DNA of 64,000 nt from Porphyra umbilicalis (lineage: Eukaryota; Rhodophyta; Bangiophyceae; Bangiales; Bangiaceae), in the NCBI GenBank assembly GCA_002049455.2, contig KV918980.1:62001-126000 (forward strand), read 5' to 3'. Below the pieces are notes generated by a model that made no database searches, was not told the origin of the DNA, and worked only from the letters and a program-made list of their open reading frames with translations. Both the position numbers and the translations under genes were made by a program. Of the stretch, positions 56,925-63,760 are shown piece by piece. The first letter of the stretch is position 1, and each line of letters opens with the position of its first letter.

Positions 56925-57973
56925 TTGACTTGGTACTTGGTCGAGTGACCACTCGCTACCGCCAGAGCCCCGACCCTCCGAGGCATCCGCTACGTCAAAC
57001 CCGCAAAGAGAGAGTCAGGCAGATGGTCCCACTCCTCTCACAAGGCATCAAGCAGCATGTCCAGCGTGGTGGGTGGCGTCGGGCGGGCACGCAGACGCCA
57101 CTCGAGGACGCTCCAAAAGTTCTCAATTGGGTTCATGTCTGGACTCTGAGGAGCCTAGTCGACGTTCTCCAGTCCGTTTAAAGCCATGTAGAAGCGCACC
57201 GCACCAGCCCTGTGGTGCCTACAGTTGTCGTCGGGCAGCTTGAAGATGCTTGTACCACCGTGCTTGGCTTCCACAAAGGAAAGATCGTGGTCGTGCGAAT
57301 TGTCGATATACTTGTGTCGGTTCAAGAGCCCCTCCACGCGTACCAGGGGCGTCCTGCCGCGCGCAGAGAAGCCCCTTCACACCCACAGGCTCAGACGACC
57401 CGACTTGAAGGATGGGCGGAGGCATGCGGGCAGGTAGTGCTCCGTCAGACGCCGCCAGACGTGTGCTTCGCCTCGCGCTGGTCGCACCGAAACGGTGTTC
57501 TCATCGGCAAAAGTAACGTTGCCCCAGTCCTCGGGTGTCCAGCTACTCTTGTCTCGCGCCCATTTGCGTCGCAGGGCCACGTGACGGGGCGTCAAAAACG
57601 GCTTAGTTACTGCGGCATAGCTCCGCAGGCAGGCTCGGTGGAGGAAGCTACACACGGTGCTCTCGCTCAGCGGGCGAGCCACCGATTGGTTGAAATCTTG
57701 TGTCAGCTGGGCCAGGGACCAGCTGCGGTGGCGGTAGCCCAGCAACTGCAACATGCGGGCGTCACGAGCGGAGAGGAGGCGGGGGCGACTGCTGCGGCGG
57801 CCGCACCCAGCCGTCCCCTCGCGCCGAACCCGCGCGGCAATGGTCGCCACAGTGCTCAAAGGCAACTTGAAATGGGAGGCAATGAAGACATGGGAAAAAG
57901 TTGAGTTTACCAAAACAGCTATGGCCGCCTGGGTGGCGGCGGGCACCTCCTTGAAGCCCTTGCGGCGCGGCAT
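56925..57973 (-). pseudogene. Decayed Tc1/mariner (DD34E) transposase
   Basis: The ATG at 57973 begins MPRRKGF, followed by paired helix-turn-helix regions (AAIAVLVNSTFSHVFIASHF, then RPRLLSARDARMLQLL). The catalytic part carries the first Asp in NVTFADENTVSV. The frame is lost near 57370 and resumes with RHKYIDN, and the second Asp is in LPDDNCRHH. An in-frame TAG near 57168 stands where Trp is usual, before APQSPDMNPIENFW with the catalytic Glu 34 residues after the second Asp block. After another shift the typical end RMPRRVGALAVASGHSTKY is still readable. At least two frameshifts and one stop make it non-functional. Confidence 0.85.
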
Positions 57974-58079
57974 GGTGGCGACTAGGGAGGAAGACAACGG
58001 ATCCCCCCCCCCCTTCCCCCCCCTCAGTGGCATCGAATTGGGCGGATCTCCGGGGGTCGGGCGATCATCTGAGCCTGGA

Positions 58080-58115
58080 AATCCGAGCGATCGTACACTT
58101 TTGGAACCCCCTGTA
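58080..58115. repeat. Probable right TIR of the Tc1 element
   Basis: On the minus strand the sequence TACAGGGGGTTCCAAAAGTG lies about 140 bp upstream of the transposase start and has the typical TA-CAG opening of Tc1 termini. I could not find the matching left end near 56.9 kb, so the element is probably truncated. Confidence 0.45.
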
Positions 58116-60489
58116 CCCTTATCTGCCGCGACCAACGCCCCAGGACGTCCACGTGGCGCAACATGAAGTCAAACTCCTTCCCCATGTTCTTTGTCTGAAT
58201 TTGCTTCGCTTGTTTGACCAGACACGTAGTAACTGACACGTCATCGTGCGAAATTTCCCGGACCCCGAAGAAGCCCACCGCCCGCACGCCTCAACGATAC
58301 GTGACCGATAGAAAGGCGCTCCACGGTTGCATCTTGTCTGCTCGCCACGCACGGTGTGAGTCATCATGTCACGTCAGGGAATGCATGCGTGTATGAATGA
58401 GGAGGCGGCAAGGGGGCTCCGTGAGTCACCAGTACATTGCATGCATATCACTATCACTTTCGCTGCCTGGCAAAGATTCATCGCATGGGTGGCGGACGAG
58501 GCTGACACTGCCGTGTTTGCGGCAAGCGACTGCTCGTGCACTCGGGGGAGGCGCGGGATTGGACCACAGCGAAGGTTGCCTGCAAGTAGGATATTTTACA
58601 AGAATGAGTCTGAATGGGTCGCTGCGCTGTGCTCACGAGGCTTGCTTCACAGAATCGCCTGCTGGTGTTTGTCAGGCACTCAGGCCCATCCCCTTTTCAG
58701 TGAAGCGGATTGGGGTGCTGGGGTGCTCACAGGTCCTTGTCCGTGTGACAATGCCCAGCCTGGGATTGTCGCCAAAGAGCATTCGTGCCCTGGAGTGGGC
58801 GGTCCACGTTGGAGGATCACCTGTCGAGAGACCGGGTCGGTGATGTCGGCGGCGACGAAATCTGTCACTGGTCCGCACCACTGGCCCTGACCCACCAGCC
58901 CACGGTGTGGGCTCGCCCACGTCACCGTGATGAATCAACACTGGTCAAGCGCTACCATTGTGGCCACCGGATCGTGCGCGCGGGAGTGTCCGTACGTGTG
59001 ACGGTGACGCAGCACGCGCAGTCATCGAATCCCCGGCCGTTTGTTGTCAGGATTGAAGCTGTGCCCCTGGGACCTTGTTGCAGTTCTTCCTTTTTCGACG
59101 CTTATGGGCATATCATATGTGCCCATCATGATGATGATGGCCACCCTACGTTATGGCTGGCGGGGTGACGCAGCACTGGCTGTCCACAGCCTGTTGGTGC
59201 CCCAGGGTATCCTCTTCAAAGCGCACGCGTGGCCGAGACAGTTTGGTGAAACCACACCTCGAGGCCACCTGCGACGCCCGGCGGCCTGCGCGCCATCCTG
59301 GTGCCACATTCGGGCCTGCACGCCGCCGCCACGCACAGCGCAGAACCCCGCGCGCTCCGGCGGCCCGCGCCGCCCATCCAGGTGGGTGGGGCGAGTCTTG
59401 CGCCCTGGCGCAGACAGCCCACTGTCAGCGACATTCGATCATCCGCTGGCGGGTCGAACCCGCCGCGCTCTCGGCGCGCCGAGTTTGCAAACGACGGTGG
59501 TGCGTTGGGACTGGGGCCCAGCGGGGCATTGGACCCCCCCCCGCCGCTTCCACTGCCAAGCAAACAAACGGGGAGGCCCCCTGACCATCGCCAATCCAAA
59601 GACGACGGGGAACCCCAAGCGCACCGCCCTTGCTCGGCAACGTCCCGGTCGGGGCCCGTGTCAGGCCTAGCACGGGGCCGGCCGCACTGGGGCGAGGCGC
59701 CGTCCCGCCGCGCCGCGATCGGCCGTGGGTGAGGTCGTCCGCGCCGCTGACCGGGCGCCCCCCGACGGCGGGGTGGTGCCAGGGTTGGCCAAAATGCCGG
59801 GAACAAAGAGCCCACCGGCGACACTGCGCGGGGTGGCTCTCGCGACAAATCGTGGTGTGACGCGTCCCGCCTTTGCGCTCCCACAAGGGGGGGTGGAAGG
59901 AGGCGACACGCAGGGCCAAACGCCGCGCCGAGGGGTCCCGCGAGGCGCCGGTACGCCGCCTTGCACCCCTGTCCGAGCGCAAAACGTCAGTGCTGGACGC
60001 TCGTCCCGCCGCCGTGAATCCCCGATCTGGAAACTGGTGGCAGGGTTAGCACGCGCGCCCCTGCTGATGGTGACACGAGTCGGGTGGCCGCCGGCGTCGA
60101 CGGGTCGGCGCGCGCCGCCTGTCGTGGTGACGGAGCGCAGGCGGTCGCCCCAGACACGCCCAGCAGGCGGGGCGCGCATGGTCCCCCGCCCCCCTCCCGT
60201 GAGCGAGCGTTTGCACATGCGAACGGGGCCGCGGCTGCGGCGCCGCAGCCGACCAGCGGGGCCGCCGCGAGCACGAGGCAGGTAGAAAAGCGGCGGCGGC
60301 GGCACCCAGAGGCAAAACGCACGCGCATTGACGAACATTTTGCTGGAGCCCGTCACCAGACCGCCGGTACAGTATTGTAGCTCGCCCCCGCGTCCCCAAA
60401 GTTGCCACATTGTCTCCTTGGCGCGCACAGACGGGCCGCCACTCGTGCCCCTCTGGCATTCTTCCCCCTCCCCCCACGCTTCTCCTCCC
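58116..60489. other. Intergenic, no supported gene
   Basis: Composition is mixed. Frames at 59216-59884 and 59667-60608 on the minus strand show no domain. The last 200 bp are the probable leader and promoter of the carbonic anhydrase gene. Confidence 0.4.
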
Positions 60490-62105
60490 ATGGCTCGCCG
60501 ACCACTGCGGCGGGCGGCCGCCGCCGCCGTCGCCGCCGCTGCCGTCGCCGCCGCGGCAACGACGGCACTCCTCCCCCACCCCGCCGCGGGCGCCCCCACA
60601 GACGGCACGCCCTGGTTCTACGAGGGCCCCTCGGGCCCCGAGCACTGGCACGCGCTTGACGACAAGTTCACCGCCTGCGGCGCCGGCGACCGCCAATCCC
60701 CCATCAATGTCGTCGTGTCGCCGCCCGTCGCGACGCAATGGACGATGCACAACCTCGCGCGGCCCGGGCCGGGCGCCCTCGCCGCCGCCCCCGGCCCCGC
60801 CAATGTGCCCCTGGCGTGCGACGACGCGGGGCCGTGCGGGGTGCTCCGGTGGCACAATGCCACCTACGCGCTCGTCGACGTGCACGTGCACGTGCCGGCC
60901 GAGCACACGATGAACGGGCGGGCCTACCCGCTCGAAGTCCACTTTGTGCACGCGTCGGCCGACACGCAGGAGATTGCGGTCGTCGGCGTGCTCTTTGACT
61001 TTGTGGGTGGGGGGCAAACGCCGCACCCGGTGCTGCAGCGGCTGCTCGACGCCAAGGCCGCCGCCGCCAACGTGTCGATTCCGGGGGCGGCGCCGGCGGC
61101 GGCGGCGGTGCCGGCGGCAGAGGCGGCGGCCGACGACGACAATGAGGGGCCCCGCGTCGCGATCAACACGACCGAGTGGGAGGCGGTCGTCCGCCCCGGC
61201 AGCGGCTTTTGCCACCTGGAAGGGAGTTTGACGACCCCCCCGTGCACCGAGGGCCTCTCCTGGTTCCTCCAAGCGGAAGTCCTCCCCGTGTCGCGCGTGC
61301 AGGTCAGCGCCTTTACGGCGATCCGCAACGCGGCGCCCACCGAGGGCAACGCGCGGCCGCTGCAAGACACCAACGGCCGCGAGGTGGTGTGCTACGGGCC
61401 CGTGGCAGAGTTGGCCGCCGCCGGCGCCGCCAGCCGCGCGTCGCCGTCGCCGTCGCCGTCGCCGCCGTCGTCGGGGGCGGCGGTGGCGACGCGGCCGCCT
61501 GCTTCCCCGCGTCGGCGGCCGTGACGACGGCGGCGGGGGCGACGGTGCGGATGGCCGACGTGGCCGTCGGCACCGTCGTCCGCACGGGGCCCGCGTCCAC
61601 GTCGGCGGTGTACACGTGGTCCCACCGGCTGCCCGCCGGCCGCCACCCGTTTGTCCGCCTGACGACCGCTGACGGGCGGGCGTTGACGGCGTCCCCCGGG
61701 CACCTGGTGTACGCCAATGGGGTGCTGACGGCCGCCGCCGACGTGGCCGTGGGGGACACCCTGCCGGCCATTGCCGCCAACGCGTCGCTGACGTCGCGCT
61801 CCTTGTCGTCGTCGGCGGCGGCGGCGGCGGCCGTGACGACGCCCGCCCACGTCGTGGCCGTCGACCGCGTCGTGGCCGACGGCTTGTTCCACCCCCACAC
61901 ACTCGACGGCGACTTGGTCGTCGACGGGTTTGTCGTCAGCACGTGGACGACGGCGGTGCCCGTGGCGGCGGCGCGCGCGGCGCTCGCGCCCGCCGCCGCC
62001 GTGTACCGGTGGACGGGGTGGTCCGCGTCGGTGCTGCACGGGGGGGGGCGGGGGTGGGTCGACGCGGCGCGGACGCTCGCCGTTGCCGCCCTGTCGGTGT
62101 TTTAG
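60490..62105 (+). CDS. Secreted alpha-carbonic anhydrase fused to a hedgehog-type Hint (Hog) domain
   Basis: The ATG at 60490 starts an Arg then Ala-rich signal peptide (RRAAAAAVAAAAVAAAATTA). The alpha-CA domain (about residues 38-310) has WHALDDKFTACGAGDRQSPI, the zinc ligands His132 and His134 in VDVHVHVPAEH and His151 in LEVHFVH, Glu138 (gate partner), Thr248 in GSLTTPPC, and the Cys63-Cys252 pair. The enzyme would hydrate CO2 outside the plasma membrane or in a secretory compartment. After a Ser-Pro linker the first frame stops at 61524, but from about 61440 the frame one base back reads AAACFPASAAV with the Cys at 61500-61502, then VRMADVAVGTVVRTG, HPFVRLTTADGRAL, SPGHLVYA, AADVAVGDTLPA, VVAVDRVVADGLFHPHTLDG and DLVVDGFVVSTW, and ends at 62105. 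This is a complete hedgehog-type Hint domain with CFP start and SPGH in place of T..H. One base missing from the GGGGG at about 61474 would fuse both; two separate frames are the alternative. Confidence 0.8.
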
Positions 62106-62410: not shown

Positions 62411-63104
62411 TCATCCCCCCCCCCCGTAACCCGCCCCCCCCCCCCAAGTCAATCCCCGCCCGCCGGTAGCGGGCGACCATGGTCGGCACCCCCCCCATCC
62501 CCCCGCTGTGGTAGTAGACGAGGCGGCACCCCGCCCACCGCCCCCCGCCACCGCCGCCCACAGCGCGCGCCACGTGCGCGGCGCGTAGACGAGGTCGACG
62601 GGGAGGCCCGCGGCGGCAAGCGCCGCCCACGCCGCCCCGTCGGCCGCCGACGGGGCGCCAAACGGGGCGGCCGGCGTCGCGGGGGGCACGATTTCGGGGT
62701 AGGCCCCGCCGCCGCCGCCGCCGCCGCCCCCCCCGCCGCGCCGTCGAGCGACCGCATCTGCGCCGCCGCGTACGCGACGCCCCCGACCGCCGGCACGACG
62801 GCGACCGACACGGGTCCCCCCGCCGCCGCCGCGGCGGGCGTCCCCGCTGCCAGCGCGCGCGCCAAAAACAGGGCCGTCGTGCACGTGCCGCCGGCCACGA
62901 CCACCACCGTCCGGGGGGGCTCCCCCTCCCCCCCCCCCCCCCCACCGCCGCCGCGTTGAGCGCCCCCAACGCCGCCCCCAACTCTGCCGCGAGCCCCGCC
63001 ACCCCCCCGCCGCCGCCGGCGACGCCCCCCCCGGCGGCACCCACACCGCCGCCCCGTCGGCCGCCGCATCCGCCGCCGCCGCCGCGGCGGCGGCCGCTGC
63101 CCCC

Positions 63105-63147
<43 letters not shown>

Positions 63148-63760
63148 GGGCCGCCACGGGCGCCACCTCCATGCCCGCCGCCAGGGCGGCGCCAAAGTTG
63201 CCGACGGGGTGCGCCACCAGCCACGCCGGCGGCGGGGGCGTGTGGTACGTGAAGCGCCACCCGCGGGCGGCGGCGGCGGCAGCGACGGCGGCCATGGCGT
63301 TGGATTGGGTGCCGCCCGACGAGACGAGGCGGGGGGGGGGGGGGGGGGGCGCCCCCGCCCCCGCCCCCGCCCCCGCCCCCGCCCCCGCCCCCGCCCCCGC
63401 CCCCGCCGCCGCCGCCACCGCCGCCGTCGTCAGCGGCGGCACTGCCGCCCGCCCACCCGGGGGGGGGGGTATGGTGAGGAGGTACCCAAGCTTGCGCGCC
63501 TTGGAGCCGGCGAGCGCGCCGCCGGCGAGCGTAAAGGCGTCATCCCGCTTGACGTACACGTCGACGCCGGCAATGGTGAAGAGCTCCAGGGGGGGGGGGG
63601 GGGGGGGGTCCGCGCGACCGCCGCCGCCCACCGGGGGGGGGGGGGGGGCGCCCCCGCCGCCGCCGAGTGGCGGCGGCGTGGGGGGAGCGGCGCCACGGGG
63701 GGGGGGGCGCCACCACCCACGCCGGGGGGGGGGGGGGGCGCCGGAGCGCGGCGGCCCCAT
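62411..63760 (-). CDS. PLP-dependent ACC-deaminase/D-cysteine desulfhydrase-like enzyme, frame-interrupted
   Basis: Minus-strand order of motifs: LFTIAGVDVYVKRDDAFTLA and ALAGSKARKLGYLLT with the Lys that would hold pyridoxal phosphate (about 63580-63475), then RLVSSGGTQSNAMAAVAAAA (about 63330-63270), GWRFTYHTPPPPAWLVAHPV, PPRTVVVVAGGTCTTALFLA (about 62920-62860) and VSVAVVPAVGGVAYAAAQMR, and finally LPVDLVYAPRTWRALWAAV and CRLVYYHSGGMGGVPTMVAR (about 62610-62470). This is the order in fold-type II PLP enzymes that split ACC or D-cysteine; the sequence does not decide between them. G/C runs and a GCCCCC repeat interrupt the frame at least three times; some may be introns. Low-complexity Ala/Gly tracts are inserted. 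The 5' end is unclear and may lie beyond 63760 or outside the window. Confidence 0.6.
63353..63410. repeat. GCCCCC hexanucleotide repeat
   Basis: About nine consecutive hexamers lie between the PLP-Lys motif and the GGTQSN motif of the PLP enzyme gene. Read on the minus strand they code Gly-Ala repeats. They are G-quadruplex prone. Confidence 0.85.

Follow-up and report, generated by a model that had tools for sequence, protein, structure and literature searches.

Sequence evidence for an alpha-carbonic anhydrase joined to a hedgehog-type autoprocessing module in the red alga Porphyra umbilicalis

A stretch of 64,000 nucleotides of the Porphyra umbilicalis genome (the window, C220:62001-126000) carries an alpha-carbonic anhydrase (CA) followed on the same strand by a Hint domain of the kind found at the C-terminus of hedgehog proteins (Hog). 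At the level of sequence, both domains, their fusion (intact in a paralogue on contig C455), the catalytic residues and the expansion of the family are evident, as is the Hog fold in a structure model, and we regard the CA-Hog fusion read from these sequences as almost certainly a real architecture. We also favour, with some reserve, the reading that the product is a secreted CA that would cleave itself and be released bearing an adduct at its C-terminus; a sterol is the likeliest candidate, and would hold the enzyme at the outer membrane or the wall.

The CA half lies in frame 1, in an ORF with an ATG at 60490 and a stop at 61524. Its start (60490..60597, plus strand) consists in translation of a Met, a basic stretch and a long hydrophobic stretch rich in Ala and Val, which by eye resembles a signal peptide and suggests that the window CA may be a secreted protein. 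The alpha-CA domain itself (60634..61389, plus strand) matched PF00194 over residues 49-300 with 88.6 bits (cut-off 27, E 6.8e-25), in agreement with alignments to PDB chains and to other CAs. The motifs HVH and EVHFVH, together with the SLTTPPC signature, were retained, and the HxH and HFVH motifs, whose His residues are presumably the zinc ligands, aligned across all three CA-Hogs of the genome and with solved CAs. In the PDB alignment, the usual proton-shuttle position of the window CA was occupied by an Asn, opposite a His of 6eki that we take to be the proton shuttle, and no His was present in that stretch. Since the usual shuttle His is absent, the turnover of the CA-Hog enzymes may be modest.

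The Hog module follows in frame 0 (61500..62102, plus strand), with its stop codon at 62103-62105. The frame-0 ORF ending at 62105 matched PF01079 with 68.3 bits (cut-off 29.7, E 9.2e-19), and the assignment also draws on alignments, a structure model and a fold match. The core holds the catalytic Cys1 at 61500, a His (His42) at the position of Hedgehog D303/D46, and Ser65-x-x-His68. Intein splicing needs a C-terminal Asn; the window protein terminates with the module, whose last residues before the stop codon are ...ALSVF, leaving no C-extein, and the modelled fold of the module was nearer to that of the Hedgehog C-terminal domain (HhC) than to inteins. An intein identity was rejected on the missing C-extein and the lower fold match. 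There was no Hedge signalling domain either, as the N-terminal part is the CA and Pfam gave no further family at or above its cut-off. The C-terminal tail (61962..62102, plus strand) contained two predicted helices, a confident one at Hint residues 155-172 and a second at 184-200 (pLDDT about 60-75); the pair is comparable to the helix-loop-helix that has been put forward for the sterol-recognition region of Hedgehog (PMC9163320; this and the other papers are cited from excerpts).

The preliminary description of this locus had claimed that the CA keeps all zinc ligands and SLTTPPC, that a full Hint module lies downstream of it, and that this module is of the Hog autoprocessing type. The motifs and alignments bear out the first claim, and the profile searches of both halves that it had proposed gave scores far above the cut-offs, in line with the second. 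The third gains support from the intact paralogue, the roughly 77 Hint places in the genome, the conserved catalytic residues and the predicted helix-loop-helix tail.

Two further regions of the window were examined on the minus strand. An ORF at 57377-58135 encoded a helix-turn-helix domain of the Tc3-type transposase (PF01498, E 4.3e-9), and 62411-63760 was a gene-like region with several frame changes by eye. An ACC-deaminase-like or PLP-dependent deaminase identity of the latter, suggested by eye, was not upheld, as 0 Pfam families matched in three frames.

The assembly (83.8 Mb, 665 contigs) has 11 phycobilisome protein matches on contig C665, 8 of them near full length, and one of them also matches solved allophycocyanins, in keeping with a red alga. 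A profile search of the whole assembly returned 16 CA matches, and in three places, on C220 (the window), C439 and C455, a CA was followed closely, on the same strand, by a Hint. The C455 copy is one uninterrupted Met-to-stop frame of 547 aa, in which a CA (92.5 bits in Pfam) is linked to a downstream Hint (55.1 bits) by a stalk of about 84 residues rich in Thr, Pro and Asp. The C439 linker consists of near-identical repeat units, the first of them in the CA frame and the last in the Hint frame, and the G-run after CAC was 8, 7 and 8 long over three successive units. Hence the linker frame changes in two of the three CA-Hog copies, both times as a -1 (or +2) shift.

When a tree was built from the 47 Hint domains (46 different rows), the three CA-linked Hints formed a clade with support of 97/87 and stayed together in 95% of the 200 bootstrap trees. 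For the CA trees, C38, C537, C563, C8 and C101 had been excluded beforehand as partial, broken or duplicate. In the tree of the eight rows kept, the CAs of the three CA-Hogs were not one group (2 changes; together in 39% of bootstrap trees), and C227 sat among them on a very long branch. In the seven-row tree without C227 they made up one side of a branch with support of 98/99, and a single clade for them with C227 kept was not rejected (p-AU 0.54). On these sequences, the simplest reading would be a single fusion followed by duplication. Searches of outside collections gave 56 pattern matches of the C455 protein to viral contigs and 82 matches of the Hint alignment to prokaryotic contigs, none of which was confirmed.

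Other CAs of the genome were also noted. On C537 and C227 (L037 and L038) the CA had an identical translated sequence over the whole domain, and for this reason the assembly may hold duplicate haplotypes. At C145:135500-137368 (L039 and L045), tandem alpha-CA domains were found within a single frame about 1100 codons long, with a fasciclin-Hog gene about 3 kb upstream; these tandem domains resemble the multi-domain alphaCA15 of Pyropia yezoensis, a Bangiales protein with several CA domains in tandem (PMC7423979).

The CA-Hogs belong to a large set of Hog genes. The genome held at least 80 Hint matches, 77 of them over the cut-off, in about 77 places, three rows being second pieces of a neighbour, and these counts are lower bounds; seven matches were clustered within about 20 kb on both strands at C243:31984-51783. 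We examined 47 of the 77 places, a non-random sample made up of the 30 best-scoring, 14 further down and the three CA-Hogs (L001-L030, L047, L048, L058-L071 and the window), with two identical or near-identical pairs among them (L013/L014 and L018/L030). Cys1 and the His of TxxH were present in all 47 domains, while the first position of the latter motif was Thr in 21 and Ser in 26, including the window copy. The tail columns A152, P155, A158, L162 and P164 were conserved in at least 90% of 31 rows, and the stalks before Cys1 were often rich in Ser, Thr, Pro, Asp or Glu. A Pfam scan for cargo domains in the 44 non-CA Hog loci identified fasciclin in two (L026 and L029) and imelysin in one (L019), with a DOMON match below the cut-off in L066, and the remaining 40 yielded no cargo family above the respective cut-off; among the 47 Hog proteins, nine are cut at the upstream end by the locus border, where a cargo farther upstream could escape such a scan. 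By eye only, L017, L021, L027 and L028 looked DOMON-like.

A profile built from 31 of the 47 Hint domains matched fly hedgehog with E 2e-22 and Sonic hedgehog with E 4.2e-18, and in the fly chain 6td6_B the match ran past the Hint. The residues associated with sterol transfer in Hedgehog were nevertheless altered. HhC (PDB 1at0, 6tyy, 6td6, 7e2i) has an Asp as general base, a Gly before Cys1 and Cys400, whereas the Hogs of this genome had a His at the D303/D46 position in 47/47, no Gly directly before Cys1 (0/47), and Cys400 in only 4/47, with Thr there in 29/47. According to PMC2362128, the Cys of motif J is replaced in red algae. Compared with HhC, their tail is also short, at about 50 residues, the Hedge domain is lacking and the N-terminal part is a CA. 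The best single-sequence match in the PDB, although weak (E 0.0015), was the D46H mutant 6tyy. This engineered D303H (D46H) Hint (PMC9163320) has its His general base in common with the Hogs described here, but it is a laboratory mutant of the fly protein, while His is the natural state in all 47 domains examined. D303H preserves structure, activity and cholesterolysis and widens the range of sterols accepted, and several D303 mutants show faster thiol cleavage (PMC9163320).

We propose that the window gene is a member of a small CA-Hog family whose products would comprise a signal sequence, an alpha-CA, a flexible stalk and a Hint with a helical adduct-recognition tail. The precursor would enter the secretory pathway, where Cys1 would attack the preceding peptide bond in an N-S acyl shift aided by Ser/Thr-x-x-His. 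The resulting thioester would then be opened by a small nucleophile, which the tail would recruit and His42 would activate as a general base. That the Hog module cleaves itself in this way is, in our judgement, probable. The likeliest nucleophile would be the alga's own sterol, giving a CA with a C-terminal sterol that could hold it at the outer membrane or wall, a location that would suit a role in bicarbonate use. Red algae have mainly cholesterol as their sterol (PMC10817344), and although its content is lower than in green and brown algae, it is among their major sterols (PMC4584343), which makes a sterol the natural candidate. The nucleophile could nevertheless differ from cholesterol because of the three departures from Hedgehog described above, and for the identity of the adduct we lean only slightly towards a sterol.

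The same fusion might also cleave itself without attaching a lipid, the thioester being hydrolysed or opened by another nucleophile, so that a soluble CA would be freed into the wall or the medium. We consider this outcome rather unlikely, if a serious competitor. The alteration of the sterol-linked Hedgehog residues, from Asp to His in all 47 domains, with Gly in none and Cys400 in four, is in its favour, as is the accelerated thiol cleavage of several D303 mutants; on the other hand, D303H keeps its cholesterolysis (PMC9163320), and both the helical tail that follows the Hint in the model and the conserved tail columns would be superfluous in a pure hydrolase.

In the window itself, the CA is read in frame 1 and the Hint in frame 0, the two ORFs overlap, and no single frame reads both. 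The preliminary description had taken the locus for a CA-Hint fusion; the architecture stands, given the intact C455 paralogue, but a single frame does not exist in the window, where the frame change had been overlooked. The 110 bases between the CA domain and the Hint (61390..61499, plus strand) form a low-complexity linker with Ser-Pro repeats in frame 1 and a G5 run at 61473-61477. Codon usage was scored in 60-base intervals with a table of 4200 codons drawn from 30 of the genome's Hint loci. Frame 1 was preferred in all intervals from 61100 to 61400-61459, the last with 2.1 vs -5.4, and frame 0 in all intervals from 61430-61489 on, the first with 5.5 vs 1.4, which places the switch of the coding signal at about 61430-61489. 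Frame breaks look common in this assembly, because 11 of the 40 assessable Hog genes had unusually long tails (>70 aa between motif J and the stop codon), some of which may be true extensions. We conclude that the frame change is most likely a length error or a variant in the GC-rich linker and not the border of a separate gene.

Slippage in the G-rich linker could instead produce two isoforms from one locus, one a secreted CA without a Hog, terminating at 61524, and the other a CA-Hog. The G5 run and the recurrence of the change in two of the three CA-Hog genes, both as a -1 (or +2) shift, fit such control, which we nonetheless judge improbable: the C455 copy needs no shift, frame 1 contained no slippery heptamer (X-XXY-YYZ) from 61390 to 61524, and the long Hog tails, even if some are true extensions, suggest that breaks of this kind are frequent in the assembly.

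The two halves might also be joined by splicing. Between 61390 and 61560, AG occurs only at 61407, 61409 and 61432, so that an ordinary intron linking the two frames would have to take out conserved CA residues. The sole frame-compatible GT-AG intron that spares them would have 32 bases (61402-61433, with GT at 61402 and AG at 61432-61433), and 32 bases are too short for an ordinary spliceosomal intron. Moreover, the codon usage backs frame 1 over 61400-61459, and many relatives have Ser/Thr/Pro/Asp-rich stalks before Cys1 that are like the frame-1 reading, making this intron very improbable. A sigma-70 promoter scan of the linker gave nothing, the sigma-70 model not being apt for a eukaryote. 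Finally, two adjoining genes, a CA and a separate Hint gene, would account for the different frames and for the CA frame stopping at 61524, but this equally improbable reading was rejected, since the Hint frame contains no Met (0 ATG) between its upstream stop and Cys1 and an intact fused copy exists on C455, to which the gap of 110 bases and the clade of CA-linked Hints can be added.

Hog genes have been reported from red algae before. Burglin (2008) described Hog ORFs in red algae, among them two in each of two Porphyra species, found no known counterpart for the sequence upstream of the red algal Hogs, and named GmGIN1 and Hoglet alone as fused to other known domains (PMC2362128). Diverse N-termini precede the Hog in the non-Hh proteins of protists and red algae (PMC2362128), as they do in the alga studied here, and kelch-Hog fusions occur in Cyanidiophyceae (PMC9812998, PMC13353863). 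Cargos of the CA, fasciclin and imelysin families are absent from the accounts excerpted from these three papers, and the word 'carbonic' occurs 0 times in the excerpted text of PMC2362128. Conversely, alpha-CAs are expanded in the Bangiales Pyropia yezoensis (PMC7423979) and Neoporphyra haitanensis (PMC8752119), two of those of P. yezoensis having been validated as secreted (PMC7423979), and 'hedgehog' appears 0 times in the main texts of both papers. The excerpts of PMC12803021 deal with Hint-domain genes of a diatom and, separately, with carbonic anhydrases, and contain no CA-Hint fusion. We found no prior description of such a fusion in the excerpts of open-licence papers cited here.

The CA, fasciclin and DOMON-like families have GPI-anchored members in plants or animals. 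All five GPI families searched (PIGA, Peptidase_C13, Gpi16, Gaa1 and Mannosyl_trans, which we take to be PIG-M) were without a match in the genome, a weak result given that the control genomes had PIGA only below the cut-off, Peptidase_C13 over the cut-off, and no match anywhere for Gpi16, Mannosyl_trans and Gaa1. Of three positive controls sought in this genome, two (STT3 and Alg6_Alg8) were found and ALG3 was not. GPI-anchor biosynthesis is apparently missing in Rhodophyta, according to excerpts of PMC3797821. This suggests that the role of GPI anchoring may be filled by Hog processing. More broadly, and only tentatively, the Hog could be a general tag by which proteins of this alga are anchored to the membrane at their C-termini, as GPI does elsewhere. 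About 77 proteins, CA, fasciclin and DOMON-like ones among them, would then carry a Hog where a GPI signal might be expected and be released with a sterol, the natural His general base allowing a broad sterol range. The Patched family (PF02460), which also covers NPC1-like proteins, had three matches in the genome (C190, C5 and C3), two of them strong, which could be NPC1-, Patched- or Dispatched-like.

If the module works, hedgehog chemistry would serve here, in a non-animal and apart from signalling, to bring a carbon-acquisition enzyme to the cell surface. The CA would provide a cargo with an assayable activity for asking what protist Hog proteins do, and the Hogs of this alga would be a natural family in which the general base is exchanged as it was by engineering in the fly protein. 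The fusion would also offer a testable answer to how proteins are tethered to the surface in red algae, which are said to lack GPI anchors (PMC3797821), and may bear on bicarbonate use and on shell boring in the Bangiales.
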